Origin: Bryobacterales bacterium
GTDB taxonomy: Bacteria; Acidobacteriota; Terriglobia; Bryobacterales; Bryobacteraceae
Assembly (NCBI GenBank): GCA_003132905.1
Contig: PKZC01000333.1
Location: 1-8,921, forward strand
Direction: 5' to 3'
Length of the DNA: 8,921 nucleotides
In this document: positions 662-4,316 of the stretch, one piece after another
Position numbering within the stretch: the stretch's first letter is position 1
How the letters are laid out: each line of letters starts with the position of its first letter
The notes under the pieces: generated by a model
Seen by the model: only the letters and a program-made list of their open reading frames with translations
Database searches by the model: none
What the model was told of the DNA's origin: nothing
Program-made: the position numbers and the translations under genes

Positions 662-1435
662 CTACTGTACCGGTTCCTGATGCTCGGGGAAGACGGCGTA
701 GTTTTCGGGCGGTGGGTAGAGGCTATACAGCAGATTGAGCCGCTTGCGCATGTGGCGGCTGGGCAGCTGGCGCGGGCCGGTTTCCACGTCGATATCGCAG
801 CAGATGCCGTGCAGGTACAGCGTTAGCGTATCGATCAGGGATTGCCGGACATAGTCGCGAAACGGCTTGGTCTCTTTGCGGATGTTGGTGTCTCGCCGCA
901 GCAGAGCCTGTTTCATGTGCCAGCTCTCTTCGTCCACTTCGCCGTGAACGCGCCCGTTCAACTCTTCGCGAAGCAGCGCGCCGTATTGGACGAGGGCTTC
1001 TTCAGAGCCATGATCGGCGGCCAGAGTGGCCAGGACGTGATAGAAGCGGTAGTGATACTCCGAAACGTCCTGATCCTTAAGCGCGAAGACCAGAACCTCT
1101 TCTTTATCGAAGCGGACCTGGGCGGCCCAGGATGCCCGGCTGTCGGGCGGTTTTTCGGTGACGACGAACTCATCCCGGCGGACGGTCCCTTTTTCTTTGC
1201 CATCCACGCGCTCCAGGTAAGGCACCAGCATGATGGACACCTTCGGCAGTAGCGCGGAAATGGCCGGCGGGAGGGCGGCGATGGGCTCTTCCAGGTACTC
1301 TTTGACATCCTCCTCGCTCAACGGCACCGAAGCGCAGAAGTAGGAGAAGGTGTTGCTGAGCGGGATCATCTCGCCGCGGAAACGCTCCGCGAACTGGCCA
1401 ACGCTTAGCTTAGAAAGATCGGGTTGCGCGGACAT
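662..1435 (-). CDS. Uncharacterised 257-aa protein upstream of the ECF sigma gene
   Basis: I do not recognise a named family. The protein is soluble: no signal peptide, no membrane helix, many charged residues. The N-terminal third is acidic and proline-containing, with a VKEYLEEPIAALPP stretch. A middle segment with KGTVRRDEFVV and VRFDKEEVLVFALKD looks like beta-strand structure, followed by helices (YHYRFYHVLATLAADHG) and a basic segment around MRKRLNLLYSLYPP near the C-terminus. A CC pair occurs in GICCDID at about residue 210. Its position directly upstream of the ECF sigma gene, same strand and 60 bp apart, could mean a linked role, but nothing in the sequence shows one. The ATG at 1435 lacks a clear Shine-Dalgarno. 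An extended -10-like motif lies about 25 bp upstream. Coding potential is convincing from length and codon pattern; function is unknown. Confidence 0.8.
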   Translation of the reverse strand: MSAQPDLSKLSVGQFAERFRGEMIPLSNTFSYFCASVPLSEEDVKEYLEEPIAALPPAISALLPKVSIMLVPYLERVDGKEKGTVRRDEFVVTEKPPDSRASWAAQVRFDKEEVLVFALKDQDVSEYHYRFYHVLATLAADHGSEEALVQYGALLREELNGRVHGEVDEESWHMKQALLRRDTNIRKETKPFRDYVRQSLIDTLTLYLHGICCDIDVETGPRQLPSRHMRKRLNLLYSLYPPPENYAVFPEHQEPVQ

Positions 1436-1473: not shown

Positions 1474-1481
1474 CGGAGGAG
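1474..1481 (+). repeat. Left copy of probable target-site duplication
   Basis: CGGAGGAG directly abuts the left inverted repeat and matches CGGAAGAG at 3534-3541 in 7 of 8 bases. The length fits IS1-type insertion. One mismatch suggests an old insertion or chance; the chance explanation is weakened by its exact position at both ends. Confidence 0.55.
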
Positions 1482-1515
1482 GGTATTGTCCTAGAAGTGC
1501 GTGAAGCGCGAAATC
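1482..1515 (+). repeat. Left terminal inverted repeat (34 bp)
   Basis: Pairs with the reverse complement of 3500-3533, 29 of 34 bases identical and ungapped. It differs at repeat positions 5, 13, 15, 17 and 29. The shared core GCGTGAAGCGC has a small internal GCG/CGC symmetry. The transposase remnant starts about 45 bp inside this end. Confidence 0.8.
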
Positions 1516-1557
1516 CGTAAACAGCGACCGCTCGCTATGCTACCGTGGGACCGATGG

Positions 1558-2015
1558 CGAGAAGGGCTTCGCGCCGCTACTTCGCATCATCGCTTCCAAA
1601 TCACCTGCGATGCGTTCCGGCCCTACGTTCCCGCCATTGCCGATACGCTCGGTGACGGCGTTAGTTTTGCACAACTCATAAAGGTCTACGGCACGAAAGA
1701 AGAAGGCCGCGAAGCTCGCTACAGCCCGTCGCAAATAGTCCAAACGGAAACGGTACCGATATTCGGAAATCCCGATCCGAGCCGAATTTGTACCAGCATC
1801 ATCGAACGTCAGAACCTCACATCAGAATGCAGATGCGCCGCCTGACTCGGTTGACGAACGGATTCTCAAAGAAGTGGGAGAATCTGTGGGCCGCGTACTG
1901 CCTGCACTTCGCCTATTACAACTTCTGCCGGATTCATCGCTCGTTGCGCGTGACGCCCGCGATGGAAACAGGAATCACCGATCACGTTTGGGATTTGGCC
2001 GAACTGCTGACGTAG
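1558..2015 (+). pseudogene. IS1-like DDE transposase remnant, 5'-truncated and frameshifted
   Basis: The recognisable part opens in frame 1 with REGLRAATSHHRFQITCDAF, continues through RPYVPAIADTL, FAQLIKVYG and RYSPSQIV, then GNPDPSRICTSIIERQNLT. The reading then jumps to frame 3 (RMQMRRLTRLTNGFSKKWEN, YYNFCRIHRSLRVTPAMETG, ITDHVWDLAELL) and stops at 2013-2015. Joining the frames needs one inserted base near 1821, where family members usually read NLT-MRMQMR; a one-base deletion explains it. The second catalytic Asp (in ITCDAF) and the catalytic Glu (in IIERQN) survive. The N-terminal half, with the zinc-finger and first Asp, is missing: homology begins only about 75 bp from the left repeat. 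The frame from 1501 is open but its first ~19 residues are unrelated sequence. The enzyme would be inactive. Family assignment is from remembered motifs of IS1-like transposases. Confidence 0.85.
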
Positions 2016-2020
2016 GAATA

Positions 2021-2320
2021 TCACGGTTCTTTAGACATCGCGTGCATGAACATGTACCATGACTCAGGGTCCATGGATTCGGCATCATCGCCATCCATAT
2101 AGCGACGCCGAATCAGCCGAAGAAAGGATTTCTTGGCAGCTTCACTGATTAGCGCGAGGGATTCTCCTTGTGAGCCTTTGATAAAGACGCGACCACGATC
2201 ATCCCGTGACCCTTGGTATGTCCCACAATTCCCGCCTCCTGTTGCGGCGAGATATAGGCAATAGACATCTTCGAAGTCGTCGGGCTCATTGCCACCAAGC
2301 CACTCAATGAAGTCAGTCAT
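2021..2320 (-). CDS. Hypothetical acidic 99-aa protein, passenger of the insertion element
   Basis: I do not recognise the family. The protein begins MTDFIEWLGGNEPDDFEDVY, has a glycine-rich GGGNCGTYQG segment at about residues 29-38, a VFIKGSQGES strand-turn, then a helix AAKKSFLRLIRRRY and an acidic tail with ESWYMFMHAM. No signal peptide or membrane segment. The frame extends upstream to a TTG at 2329, but the ATG at 2320 is preferred because AGGA lies nine bases before it, whereas it would abut the TTG. The gene faces the transposase remnant tail to tail with five bases between stops and diverges from the next ORF with 39 bp between starts. The codon pattern and compact fit suggest it is real; the function is unknown. 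Confidence 0.6.
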   Translation of the reverse strand: MTDFIEWLGGNEPDDFEDVYCLYLAATGGGNCGTYQGSRDDRGRVFIKGSQGESLALISEAAKKSFLRLIRRRYMDGDDAESMDPESWYMFMHAMSKEP

Positions 2321-2359
2321 TTTATCCAATCCTATTCATCATGGCTTAGACTTAGCGAG

Positions 2360-2623
2360 ATGGAACCACTGGATTCTGTACTGCGCCGTGGCTGGACGTT
2401 TCTCGTAGAAAAGCCCTTGGAATTCGCGCGCGACCCGGAAACAGGACGTGCAGGGTTGATTTTCTTTTCCTCAGCTCATTTTCAAGGGAAGACGATTGAG
2501 ACTCCGGTAGGTTTGGTCCTGACAAAGGAAGCAGCACAAGCGCTTCTGCGGGATCTCTCAGAACTTGAAACTCTTCTGAGAGCAGCAACGTCAGGCCATA
2601 CCAAGCCAGATTCCGTCCAATAA
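2360..2623 (+). CDS. Hypothetical 87-aa protein, passenger of the insertion element
   Basis: Family not recognised. The sequence reads as a compact cytosolic alpha/beta protein: RRGWTFLVEKPLEF, then FARDPETGRAGLIFFSSAHF, a probable strand VGLVLTKEAAQALLRDL, and a C-terminal helix LSELETLLRAATSG. The beta-strand followed by a EAAQALLRDL helix resembles many small accessory proteins in which a strand-encoded sensor segment is followed by an amphipathic helix, but this does not name a function. The start ATG at 2360 has only a weak GCGAG upstream. It diverges from the 99-aa gene, so the 39-bp gap must hold or adjoin both promoters. An overlapping minus-strand frame at 2352-2966 is less protein-like. 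Confidence 0.55.
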   Translation: MEPLDSVLRRGWTFLVEKPLEFARDPETGRAGLIFFSSAHFQGKTIETPVGLVLTKEAAQALLRDLSELETLLRAATSGHTKPDSVQ

Positions 2624-2722
2624 ATTCGCGTAGTCGCTCGCGCAACGTCAGGGCAGTAGCGAATATCTGCCGACACTTCTGCATGCTAAACTCCGAGTGT
2701 CGCTCCGAATCAGATAGGAAAT

Positions 2723-2785
2723 ATGGACTCTCTAAACGAAGGACCGCCTGGCAGCGGGCTTTCGCTGTTCCTGAACCCAGTCTAG
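2723..2785 (+). CDS. Possible 20-residue leader or mini-ORF before the nuclease-like gene
   Basis: ATG at 2723 begins a 20-codon frame, MDSLNEGPPGSGLSLFLNPV, ending with TAG at 2783-2785, one base before the Shine-Dalgarno (AGGAG, 2787-2791) of the next gene. AGGAA lies just before its own ATG, closer than is ideal. The placement would allow translational coupling, but the peptide has no recognised relative and could be chance. Confidence 0.22.
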   Translation: MDSLNEGPPGSGLSLFLNPV

Positions 2786-2786
2786 C

Positions 2787-2791
2787 AGGAG
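2787..2791 (+). promoter_or_regulatory. Shine-Dalgarno site of the nuclease-like gene
   Basis: AGGAG seven bases before ATG 2799. It is the best ribosome binding site in the insertion element and decides this start. Confidence 0.6.
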
Positions 2792-2798
2792 AACGAAC

Positions 2799-3254
2799 AT
2801 GGCCGCGAGCCATACTCAATTCAAGAAGATCGCTTATGACAAGCTCAACGCGCGACAGAAAGAACAGTTCAACTTCCAAAAGATTGCGGCCACCCTGGCA
2901 GACTACGGCTTCAACTGCATTAAGCTGAGCGACGATTGGCAGGGCGCCGATTTTCTGGCTTACCACGTGGACGGTACGACGACACTGCGCGTCCAGTTGA
3001 AATCAAGGTTGGACATAAAGCAAAAATATCGCGACAAGAATATTTGGATGGCTTTTCCCCACAACAAGGCGTGGTACCTGATCGAGTATGACCGTCTTGT
3101 GGAAAAGGTTGGAGCGACAACGAAGTGGCTCACAAGTTGTTCGTGGCTTAATGACCATGGGTACTCCTCAGGAAGCATCAACCCTGAGTTGCTCGCGAGC
3201 CTTGCCGAATACAAACTTGGGCCAGTCTACGGTGTCGTGCTGGATGAAGACTAG
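2799..3254 (+). CDS. PD-(D/E)XK nuclease-like protein of 151 aa, passenger of the insertion element
   Basis: The protein matches a widespread uncharacterised bacterial family that I recall by its pattern: a lysine-rich N-terminus with NARQKEQFNFQKIAATLADY, then LSDDWQGADF, LRVQLKSR, KYRDKNIWMAF and a WYLIEYDRL segment. Asp51 in GADF followed by Gln66-x-Lys68 in VQLKSR on the next strand fits the D...(E/Q)xK catalytic layout of the PD-(D/E)XK fold, with Gln in place of the usual Glu as in several active members. It therefore probably binds or cuts nucleic acid, but whether it is active or what it recognises is not shown. No methyltransferase accompanies it, so a classical restriction-modification pair is unlikely. 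The start at 2799 is fixed by a strong AGGAG at 2787-2791, seven bases upstream. The protein is soluble with no export signal. Its length equals the family norm, so the gene looks intact while the transposase is decayed. Confidence 0.75.
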   Translation: MAASHTQFKKIAYDKLNARQKEQFNFQKIAATLADYGFNCIKLSDDWQGADFLAYHVDGTTTLRVQLKSRLDIKQKYRDKNIWMAFPHNKAWYLIEYDRLVEKVGATTKWLTSCSWLNDHGYSSGSINPELLASLAEYKLGPVYGVVLDED

Positions 3255-3330
3255 CTCCAAGCAACTTCGTTTGGTGATATTCGACACTGGCAGAGAGCCT
3301 TACAAAAGCACCGTGCGATAGAATCCAGGT

Positions 3331-3489
3331 ATGATAATCGGCCCAGATGAGACGCTACGAATTTTTTGTGCCGCACTCCAGGGCGTCATAATAGCAGGCC
3401 CAAAACAAACGCCAGACGAGATTGCGAAGCGAACAACCGAAATCGCTAGAGCTGCGGAGGACGCCTTCGCAAATATTGAGATCAGCTAA
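3331..3489 (+). CDS. Hypothetical small protein of 52 aa, passenger of the insertion element
   Basis: ATG at 3331 opens a frame to TAA at 3487-3489, giving MIIGPDETLRIF, then CAALQGVIIAGPKQTPDE and a lysine/arginine-alanine helix IAKRTTEIARAAEDAF. The second half has the heptad-like spacing and the PDEIAKRTTEIA phrasing of many small phage and mobile-element proteins, which supports real coding. There is no clear Shine-Dalgarno (only AGGT touching the ATG). It lies 76 bp after the nuclease-like gene and ends 10 bp before the right inverted repeat, so it is the last gene of the element. Function unknown; the intervening 76 bp show nothing recognisable. Confidence 0.5.
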   Translation: MIIGPDETLRIFCAALQGVIIAGPKQTPDEIAKRTTEIARAAEDAFANIEIS

Positions 3490-3499
3490 AAAGTGCGTT

Positions 3500-3533
3500 G
3501 ATTTTGCGCTTCACGCGCCTTTAGGACACTACC
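3500..3533 (-). repeat. Right terminal inverted repeat (34 bp)
   Basis: Read on the minus strand from 3533 it begins GGTAGTGTCCTAAAGGCGCG and matches the left repeat at 29 of 34 positions. Its GCGC-GTGAA-GCGC core could form a small stem. It ends the element 30 bp from the stop of the third gene of the toxin-antitoxin operon. Confidence 0.8.
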
Positions 3534-3541
3534 CGGAAGAG
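3534..3541 (+). repeat. Right copy of probable target-site duplication
   Basis: CGGAAGAG directly outside the right inverted repeat; pairs with CGGAGGAG at 1474-1481, 7 of 8 identical. Confidence 0.55.
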
Positions 3542-3563: not shown

Positions 3564-3725
3564 TCAGTGCGCAGGAGGGAGCTTGAGCGCTTTGCGGACG
3601 CGTGCAAATACGTCGCCTTCGGCGACACCACTGGCGTCACCCTCATCGATGACGCCCCTGAGGGCAGCAAGTTTCGCCTGGTATTGCTGCTCGTCGGTCA
3701 AATTGACCTTAGAGTCGGACACCAT
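3564..3725 (-). CDS. Small ParD-tail-like protein, third gene of the higBA operon (53 aa)
   Basis: The frame runs from ATG 3725 to TGA at 3564-3566. The second half, KLAALRGVIDEGDASGVAEG followed by DVFARVRKALKLPP, resembles the C-terminal toxin-binding segment of ParD/CC2985-type antitoxins (pattern LRA-I-EG-SG-AE-FDxxxFxARxR). The N-terminus lacks the ribbon-helix-helix DNA-binding domain that a full ParD has, and the protein is about 30 residues shorter than usual. The gene starts 15 bp after the higA stop. AAGGAG (3728-3733) lies only two bases before the ATG but five before the GTG at 3722, so the real start may be GTG 3722. It may be an accessory or decoy antitoxin, or an orphan fragment captured by the operon. 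The resemblance is from pattern memory, so moderate confidence. Confidence 0.6.
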   Translation of the reverse strand: MVSDSKVNLTDEQQYQAKLAALRGVIDEGDASGVAEGDVFARVRKALKLPPAH

Positions 3726-3740
3726 GGCTCCTTGGCGACA

Positions 3741-4022
3741 TTATGCGAATACCAGCCGTTTGAGCTTCAGCCGGTCCGTGCGAACCTGGGCCAAGTCATA
3801 CTGGGCTTGTTGCACGAGCCAGCTTTCTGCGCTGCCGCCGAAAACCTGGGCCAGCCTGACGGCCATTTCGGGAGAGATCCCGCGTTTTTCGTTCACCAGT
3901 TCCGATAAGGTGGTGCGCGTCACTCCAAGGGCGGCGGCCGCTTGCGTGATGCTCAAGCCGAGAGGCTCAATACACTGGCGAAGAACAAAGCCGCCAGGGT
4001 GGGGTGGATTCTTCATAGACAC
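3741..4022 (-). CDS. higA: HigA-family antitoxin (XRE helix-turn-helix)
   Basis: This 93-aa protein has the HigA signature: [20 protein letters not shown], then a lambda-repressor-like helix-turn-helix [20 protein letters not shown] with the wing [20 protein letters not shown], and [17 protein letters not shown] near the end. It should bind and neutralise HigB and repress its own operon through the palindrome upstream of higB. It lies 15 bp after the higB stop. GTG at 4022 is preferred over ATG at 4016 because AGAGGA (4030-4035) sits seven bases before the GTG. Length is normal for the family. Toxin-first order is the usual one for higBA systems. Confidence 0.93.
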
Positions 4023-4029
4023 GGTTTAG

Positions 4030-4035
4030 TCCTCT
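4030..4035 (-). promoter_or_regulatory. Shine-Dalgarno site of higA
   Basis: AGAGGA on the minus strand, seven bases before GTG 4022; it lies directly after the higB stop codon and selects the GTG over the ATG six bases later. Confidence 0.5.
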
Positions 4036-4037
4036 CT

Positions 4038-4316
4038 TCAGTGGTAATCCAGATAATTGACATCGAATGCGTCGTGGTCGTCAAAACGAAAAATCACCCT
4101 CCAGTTTGCGCGTACCGTCACGGACCAAAAGCCGTTCCATTCGCCCTTGAGCGAATGCAGCCTCAGGCCTGGCACATCCATATCGGCAACCACGCGAGCC
4201 GCATCCAGGCGCGCGAGAATGTCGCGCAACTTGCCGGCGTGTTCAGCAATCACACCCCGCGGGTCGTCGTCTCCGTAAAGGCGTTTCAGCCCTTTGTGAC
4301 GGATCGACCGGATCAC
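4038..4316 (-). CDS. higB: HigB-family toxin (RelE/ParE-superfamily ribosome-dependent mRNA interferase)
   Basis: The 92-aa protein starts with the family hallmark IRSIRHKGLKRLYGDDDPRG and ends with LRLHSLKGEWNGFWSVTV, RANWRVIFRFDDHDAFDVNY. HigB toxins cut mRNA on the ribosome; the basic and aromatic residues in the SLKGEW and NWRVIFRF strands are where the active-site residues lie in relatives. Length and both end motifs match intact family members. The start is GTG at 4316, and no Shine-Dalgarno precedes it; a promoter with near-consensus -35 and 17-bp spacer places the transcript start at this codon, so the mRNA may be leaderless. The gene is first in the operon and diverges from lpxB. Confidence 0.93.
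   Translation of the reverse strand: MIRSIRHKGLKRLYGDDDPRGVIAEHAGKLRDILARLDAARVVADMDVPGLRLHSLKGEWNGFWSVTVRANWRVIFRFDDHDAFDVNYLDYH

Follow-up and report, generated by a model that had tools for sequence, protein, structure and literature searches.

The window analysed here, an 8,921-nucleotide contig (PKZC01000333.1, assembly GCA_003132905.1) of a Bryobacterales bacterium in the Acidobacteriota, contains at positions 1482-3533 an element bounded by terminal inverted repeats, within which the remnant of a transposase of the IS1 type of insertion sequence (IS) is followed by cargo DNA. The left terminal inverted repeat (1482-1515, plus strand, 34 bp) and the right one (3500-3533, minus strand) agreed at 29/34 positions, as an earlier note on this DNA had reported, or at 30/35 with one extra base counted, and formed the best 34-bp inverted pair in the whole window at arm spacings of 100-6000 bases, above the maximum of 26/34 matches (mean 23.8) in 60 first-order Markov resamples. 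The first 14 bases of the right repeat were an exact copy of the family motif GGTAGTGTCCTAAA, which the left repeat matched at 12/14 positions. The flanking direct repeat of the earlier note was likewise recovered, with CGGAGGAG at 1474-1481 and CGGAAGAG at 3534-3541 identical at 7/8 positions; the lone mismatch suggests an older insertion. The G+C content was 52% in the element and 59% in its 700-base flanks.

The transposase remnant (1561-2015, plus strand) was delimited by tblastn against the transposase of a related element, L151, by a 14-row alignment, and by blastn (81.8% to L151). Positions 1561-1821 aligned with residues 174-260 of the 324-aa L151 transposase at 89% identity (tblastn), after which a second frame ran to a stop at 2015, both frames matching one protein. 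Residues 1-173 were gone and the frame was broken near 1820, bearing out the suspected dead IS1-like transposase; the presumed second and third catalytic positions were kept, and the first D and the zinc finger were missing. To its left, 1516-1560 (plus strand) is similar to L151 and represents the remainder of a left module, consisting of sub-terminal DNA and the first codons of a left-end gene (ATG at 1554-1556) cut by a deletion. The left 83 bp of the element were 84.6% identical to the L151 left end (element positions 6-83), from which homology jumped to L151 position 2654, within the transposase (81.8%). Since left end and transposase remnant match L151 with a gap between them, approximately 2.6 kb was lost relative to an L151-like element. 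This lost segment very probably comprised the left gene, a first cargo bay (bay A), and the transposase N-terminus, so that 1482-3533 derives by deletion from a cargo transposon of the IS1 type. No DNA match was found between the right cargo of the window and that of L151. With its transposase broken, the window copy is functionally close to a mobile insertion cassette (MIC).

All DNA from the transposase stop to the right end (2016-3499) was assigned to a second cargo bay, bay B, on the basis of a family-wide homology break near the transposase stop. Four passenger open reading frames (ORFs) with intact frames had been proposed for it, one of which, at 2799-3254 (plus strand, 151 aa), was independently supported by 1519 homologues and is the only convincing gene. 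Such support was lacking for the other three: a 102-aa ORF with no known relative and uncertain gene status, first placed at 2021-2320 and in fact extending over 2021-2329 on the minus strand; an 87-aa ORF of uncertain gene status (2360-2623, plus strand), for which a search of 5.8 billion proteins returned only itself; and a 52-aa ORF (3331-3489, plus strand) with no evidence of being a gene. The Pfam scan matched none of the four (0/4), and NCBIfam and PADLOC yielded three weak matches (E 0.008-0.24), taken as noise. Homologue searching beyond these profile scans covered ORFs 2360-2623 and 2799-3254.

The 151-aa product is probably a PD-(D/E)XK nuclease, as judged from residues E22, D51, and Q66-x-K68, invariant across 28 alignment rows, and from a predicted fold order that together with the D...QxK motif fits this superfamily and is common to the PD-(D/E)XK nucleases Hjc, RecU, I-Ssp6803I, and the SPARDA nuclease. 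The top Foldseek and VIA-align matches share the fold, and a profile of the protein gave no useful match among solved structures. Its relatives were distributed over many phyla at 50 genome loci. Transposon ends sought around them (at most 11/35 mismatches) were found neither at any of the 50 genome loci nor at the single viral locus, and the nuclease-like gene is therefore not tied to the transposon as a constant companion.

Genomes closer to the window were located by flank DNA, the best being G431 (82% over the upstream gene); L001 is an acidobacterium of the same phylum. Among 396 genomes of the phylum, the upstream protein encoded at 662-1435 had two strong matches, in the family to which the closer genomes also belong. 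At the corresponding locus in G431 (L098), the left flank matched up to window position 1475, the element was absent, and the match resumed 87 bp on at window 3752, with the window stretch 3586-3696 matched further downstream. At L099, L100, and L059 the left-flank match stopped at 1437-1441, and the element gave no match there either. The empty site sought by the earlier note was thus obtained on its left side, continuous to 1475 and free of the element, and on the right only from 3752, where rearrangement of a toxin-antitoxin region blurs the border.

Elements with the same ends, predicted by the earlier note, were surveyed in 237 genomes of the family of G431. An initial inverted-repeat scan (at least 20/26 matches) missed most elements and was replaced by a search for the end motif and duplication. 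The exact 14-mer occurred at 62 sites in 38/237 genomes compared with 3 sites for the reversed control; elsewhere in the phylum, 9 sites in 6/297 genomes were no more than the control gave (9 sites), so that the exact 14-mer is uninformative there. Nine inward-facing exact pairs lay on one contig, with a perfect 8-bp duplication in 7/9, a 5/8 duplication in one, and a separation of only 4 bases in one; allowing an inexact partner added four elements with perfect duplications. The perfect-duplication elements from this search measured 385, 928, 1351, 1608, 2170, 2519, 3126, 3210, 4038, 4110, and 4130 bp. Two elements resembling miniature inverted-repeat transposable elements had the same ends: L111 (810-1194, 385 bp, perfect 8-bp duplication) and L116 (833-1163, 331 bp, 5/8). 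Pairs of ends facing each other across only 4 and 6 bases lay at G609:C91:512434-512465 and G151:C119:578-611; they may represent end junctions or simply hairpins.

In a sampling independent of the ends, a transposase match was present in 85/237 genomes, and 40 of the 52 best-scoring places were taken; among the 12 omitted, five were already counted via their ends and seven were mostly partial or contained a stop. Terminal inverted repeats with a perfect 8-bp duplication, the short-duplication architecture of IS1, were identified at 22/40 transposase loci and at 0/40 whichever of 40 shuffled versions of the motif was used; with the duplication alone, 5/40 decoys reached 1/40 loci. In total, 33 perfect-duplication elements were tallied, comprising 28 with a transposase (a few broken) and five without (L113, L134, L156, L160, and L111, with L160 retaining a transposase scrap). 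Not counted were L120 (6/8), L170 (the same place as L123 and L090; 6/8), L116 (5/8), L093 (6/8), and L088 (8/8, arms 9/34), with L170 and L116 nonetheless kept in the 36-element protein set. All 33 target sequences differed, the repeat never reached 9 bp, and the ends varied among elements yet agreed within one, for instance GGTAGTGGGGTCATAG at both ends of L205. The same ends, duplication, and cargo without a transposase gene, as in MICs, were found in L113, L134, L156, and L160. Same-ended relatives that differ in cargo and have perfect 8-bp duplications, 0.9-6.3 kb long apart from a single 385-bp element, support the proposed movement of the segment as one unit, to which the target duplications point.

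The 28 transposase-bearing elements ranged from 2008 to 6267 bp (median 3602), none being a bare IS, and displayed the module order left end, often a gene for a small basic protein, bay A, transposase, bay B, and right end. A DNA comparison of 27 elements, namely L170 and 26 of the 28 (351 pairs), identified three segments as conserved: the left end, in many copies together with the small gene; the transposase; and approximately 30 bp at the right end. Homology between elements broke off no more than 60 bp from the stop codon of the transposase in 478/542 cases and extended further in nine. Transposase DNA was common to 271/351 pairs compared with cargo DNA in 5/351, cargo sharing being defined as at least 100 bp inside the bays after exclusion of the left 520 bp and of 250 bp before and 60 bp after the transposase. 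For example, the left and transposase modules of L174 and L200 were 80-87% identical with no cargo match. The cargo is thus replaced much faster than the core, so that the element represents a small vehicle with exchangeable bays.

The left-end gene was present in 14/36 elements, at a distance of 21-78 bp from the left terminus, and encoded a protein with a lysine/arginine-rich C-terminal tail in ten copies and with 179 homologues, some from Bryobacteraceae-named records; the copies tested had no Pfam or NCBIfam match. A G+C-rich stem-loop segment was common to L174 (380-464), L200 (380-490), L167 (389-515), L182 (380-514), L168 (960-1058), and L176 (771-871; element coordinates), lying after the left-end gene in four elements and displaced rightward by approximately 400-600 bp in L176 and L168, with fold z values of -1.5 and -2.9 in two elements. 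It might mark the start of bay A or a cargo entry point.

Passenger genes unrelated to transposition, the hallmark of a transporter IS (tIS), lay between the transposase's own ends in this family. They included N6/N4 methyltransferase-Mrr-like fusions (L115, L169, L173, and L175, the Mrr score of L173 being just under the cut-off), HTH plus Peptidase_M78 proteins resembling ImmA/IrrE regulators (L173 and L180), thymidylate kinases (L160, L182, and L183), P63C proteins (L115 and L201), antitoxins (two MqsA-type proteins and one SocA-like), a dCTP deaminase-like protein (L192), an NYN protein (L113), HATPase with DUF4325 (L134), and an SDH-type (ClpP-like) protease with DUF4145 (L170). With PADLOC on 74 proteins, the 25 of 82 matching families that were listed were all of methyltransferase type, each in 4/74 proteins.

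The best NCBIfam model for 6/6 transposases was NF033558 (transpos_IS1; 70.9-96.8 bits). PF03400 was above its cut-off of 24.1 in one of two tested (L115, 26.4 bits; L151, 23.7), and the zinc-binding domain model shared by IS1 and IS1595 scored 19-27 bits (cut-off 28). No IS1595 (ISXO2-like) transposase model appeared among the Pfam and NCBIfam matches, the IS1 models being preferred with all scores weak, and a sequence search of solved structures gave no match to the transposase. An alignment of 13 transposases and the window piece displayed D190 and E255 as invariant and D117 as nearly so, which by analogy with IS1 we take to be the catalytic positions. Judged by eye, most full-length copies had a Cys-rich N-terminus, in line with the DDE residues and N-terminal zinc finger of IS1.

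The transposase search also retrieved 28 plasmid records, some labelled IS1 family transposase, of which the first four were inspected, all alphaproteobacterial and with transposases 38-41% identical. A consensus-free search identified GGTAGTG... ends with 8-bp duplications on 3/4 plasmids (arms 20-22/24), delimiting elements of 4224 bp in Hoeflea, 3370 bp in Mesorhizobium loti, and 2634 bp in Acidiphilium multivorum. Each encoded a small basic protein approximately 270-280 bp from the left end, resembling the left-end gene product by eye in the pattern GG...A...R...IA..A. A search with the left-end gene itself retrieved no plasmid record. Their cargo included HTH plus M78 proteins (L208 and L210) and an SDH-type protease (L211), classes also present in the first family. 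Three weak plasmid end pairs (14/24) look like chance. The same end search found no element on the Methylocapsa plasmid (L209), where an annotated Shedu immune nuclease (1446-2624) was observed approximately 2.4 kb upstream of the IS1-type group transposase.

Taken together, the window segment 1482-3533 is, at a probability of about 0.88, a worn copy of an IS1-type transposon with exchangeable cargo, a family in which ends, duplications, module borders, and cargo turnover were observed directly. In this model the transposase would bind the GGTAGTG-type end on either side and integrate the element in full through a cut staggered by 8 bp, carrying all enclosed DNA along. Transposition would be carried out by the IS1-type group transposase, acting in trans on broken copies, and elements could swap cargo by recombining within the left and transposase modules that they have in common. 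Defence or selfish maintenance may be the role of the cargo, which in the window is probably a small PD-(D/E)XK nuclease.

Several points weigh against this interpretation. Movement of an element was not observed, and the right border of the window's empty site is blurred. Under the pairing rule approximately 38/62 exact ends had no partner, many near contig ends, and 18/40 transposase loci (L170 included) gave no end pair with an 8/8 duplication; several of these lay at contig ends, and L171, L190, L196, L197, and L204 did not and are unexplained. The short uncounted candidates L093 (1082 bp) and L088 (830 bp) contain transposase fragments, the IS1-model scores were below the NCBIfam cut-off of 100, and 12 clusters of shared cargo at the protein level each linked 2-3 elements. 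A Pfam match was absent for 18/38 cargo proteins scanned individually, and no enrichment of defence genes is claimed.

An alternative that we regard as unlikely is that the cargo moved by another route, the nuclease-like gene entering alone as an integron cassette or homing-type gene, with the IS1-type ends incidental. It would accommodate the scattered relatives of the 151-aa protein in many phyla, none of which had IS1-type ends, the failure to find a conserved neighbour in the 43 loci compared (7/50 genome loci omitted), and the presence of a homologue in only 4/237 family genomes, two of them weak. It is also consistent with a tyrosine integrase within approximately 3 kb of a relative at three of the 43 loci (L012, L036, and L042), which we take to be integron-type, and the gene may indeed also travel as an integron cassette. 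Against it, a rare passenger is expected where family cargo is diverse and rarely shared, and the ends in the window enclose the nuclease gene with a duplication. As to integron attC core sites in the window element, three GTTRRRY strings were found, all within the nuclease-like ORF, and no array.

Considerably less credible is an ordinary IS1-type IS that later gained unrelated genes by nested insertions and had no cargo-carrying lifestyle. The decayed core of the window copy, the existence of the short candidates, and the uniqueness of most ORFs to one element (102 singletons of 60 aa or longer, a count that takes in spurious frames) would fit such a history, in contrast to the minimum length of 2008 bp among the 28 transposase-bearing copies, the similar layout on plasmids of another phylum, and intact transposases adjoining cargo where the flanking duplication has stayed perfect. 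Repeats that are merely dispersed intergenic sequences or attachment sites around a recombination hotspot, as the variable toxin-antitoxin region on the right flank could hint, are very improbable given the transposase between the ends and the 8-bp duplications of differing target sequence at separate insertions.

The exchangeable-cargo transposon proposed here resembles several known systems. The ends of IS1 start with GGT and its target duplications are mostly 9 bp; the family is alike in its IS1-like transposase, GGT ends, and short duplication, and differs in a single-frame protein mostly of approximately 310-325 aa, 8-bp duplications, cargo, and models below the trusted cut-off. The IS1595 family is alike in its zinc-ribbon transposase, 8-bp duplications, and passenger genes, whereas the present transposases match IS1 models and no IS1595 transposase model. 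MIC cassettes have the same ends as IS231 and no transposase; IS231/MIC231 belong to another transposase family, and their ends differ from those described here. In one report, elements of the IS231 type with extra DNA and passenger genes are termed modular, the IS231-MIC231 papers being cited there, and this modular aspect is described as unseen in other IS families as of 2008, perhaps for want of a systematic search (PMC2266710). On that account IS231/MIC231 (IS4 family, Bacillus cereus group) have extra DNA between left end and transposase, compared with two bays flanking the transposase and a left-end gene here. The tIS is defined, in two further reports, as an IS that also carries genes without a role in transposition, with MICs also known (PMC3129680, PMC7986276) and one tIS member of the IS6 family named (PMC7986276). 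The present elements share the passenger genes and differ in that all 28 transposase-bearing copies exceed bare-IS length, with cargo varying per copy. The window group is of the tIS/modular-IS kind on an IS1-type chassis that adds two bays and the left-end gene; a literature search on the IS1 family and passenger genes, with coverage lying outside ISfinder and most subscription journals, retrieved no IS1-type cargo transposon.

A wider proposal, tentative and judged slightly short of even odds, is that these elements constitute a distinct class of small bacterial transposons in which two exchangeable bays are built into a chassis of an IS1-type transposase and the conserved left-end gene, whose small basic product presumably binds DNA. 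Cargo would be swapped at defined module borders, the bays would serve chiefly to disseminate genes for defence, toxin-antitoxin systems, and nucleotide metabolism, both inside a phylum and across phyla, and the window copy would be a fossil outlived by its cargo. IS-type elements are normally viewed as gene-free, and the delimited transposase-bearing copies here all have room for cargo, with discernible module borders and almost complete turnover of the cargo. If this pattern holds, the ends could be used to catalogue numerous short gene-carrying units that lack annotation in these genomes, and the bays would be a place to seek small defence or selfish genes of uncharacterized type, raising the question of how a two-ended element swaps its middle DNA yet keeps its ends, left gene, and transposase.

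To the right of the window element, a short antitoxin-like ORF (3564-3725, minus strand) was followed by a HigA/HigB-type pair (3741-4022 and 4038-4316, minus strand), and in L098 the interval corresponding to 3564-4316 has a differently ordered set. Because of this different order, the interval between 662-1435 and lpxB looks like a hotspot. The 257-aa protein encoded at 662-1435 (minus strand) had no Pfam match and one noise-level NCBIfam match, and the DNA of this gene was conserved beside a sigma-factor gene and lpxB in relatives.

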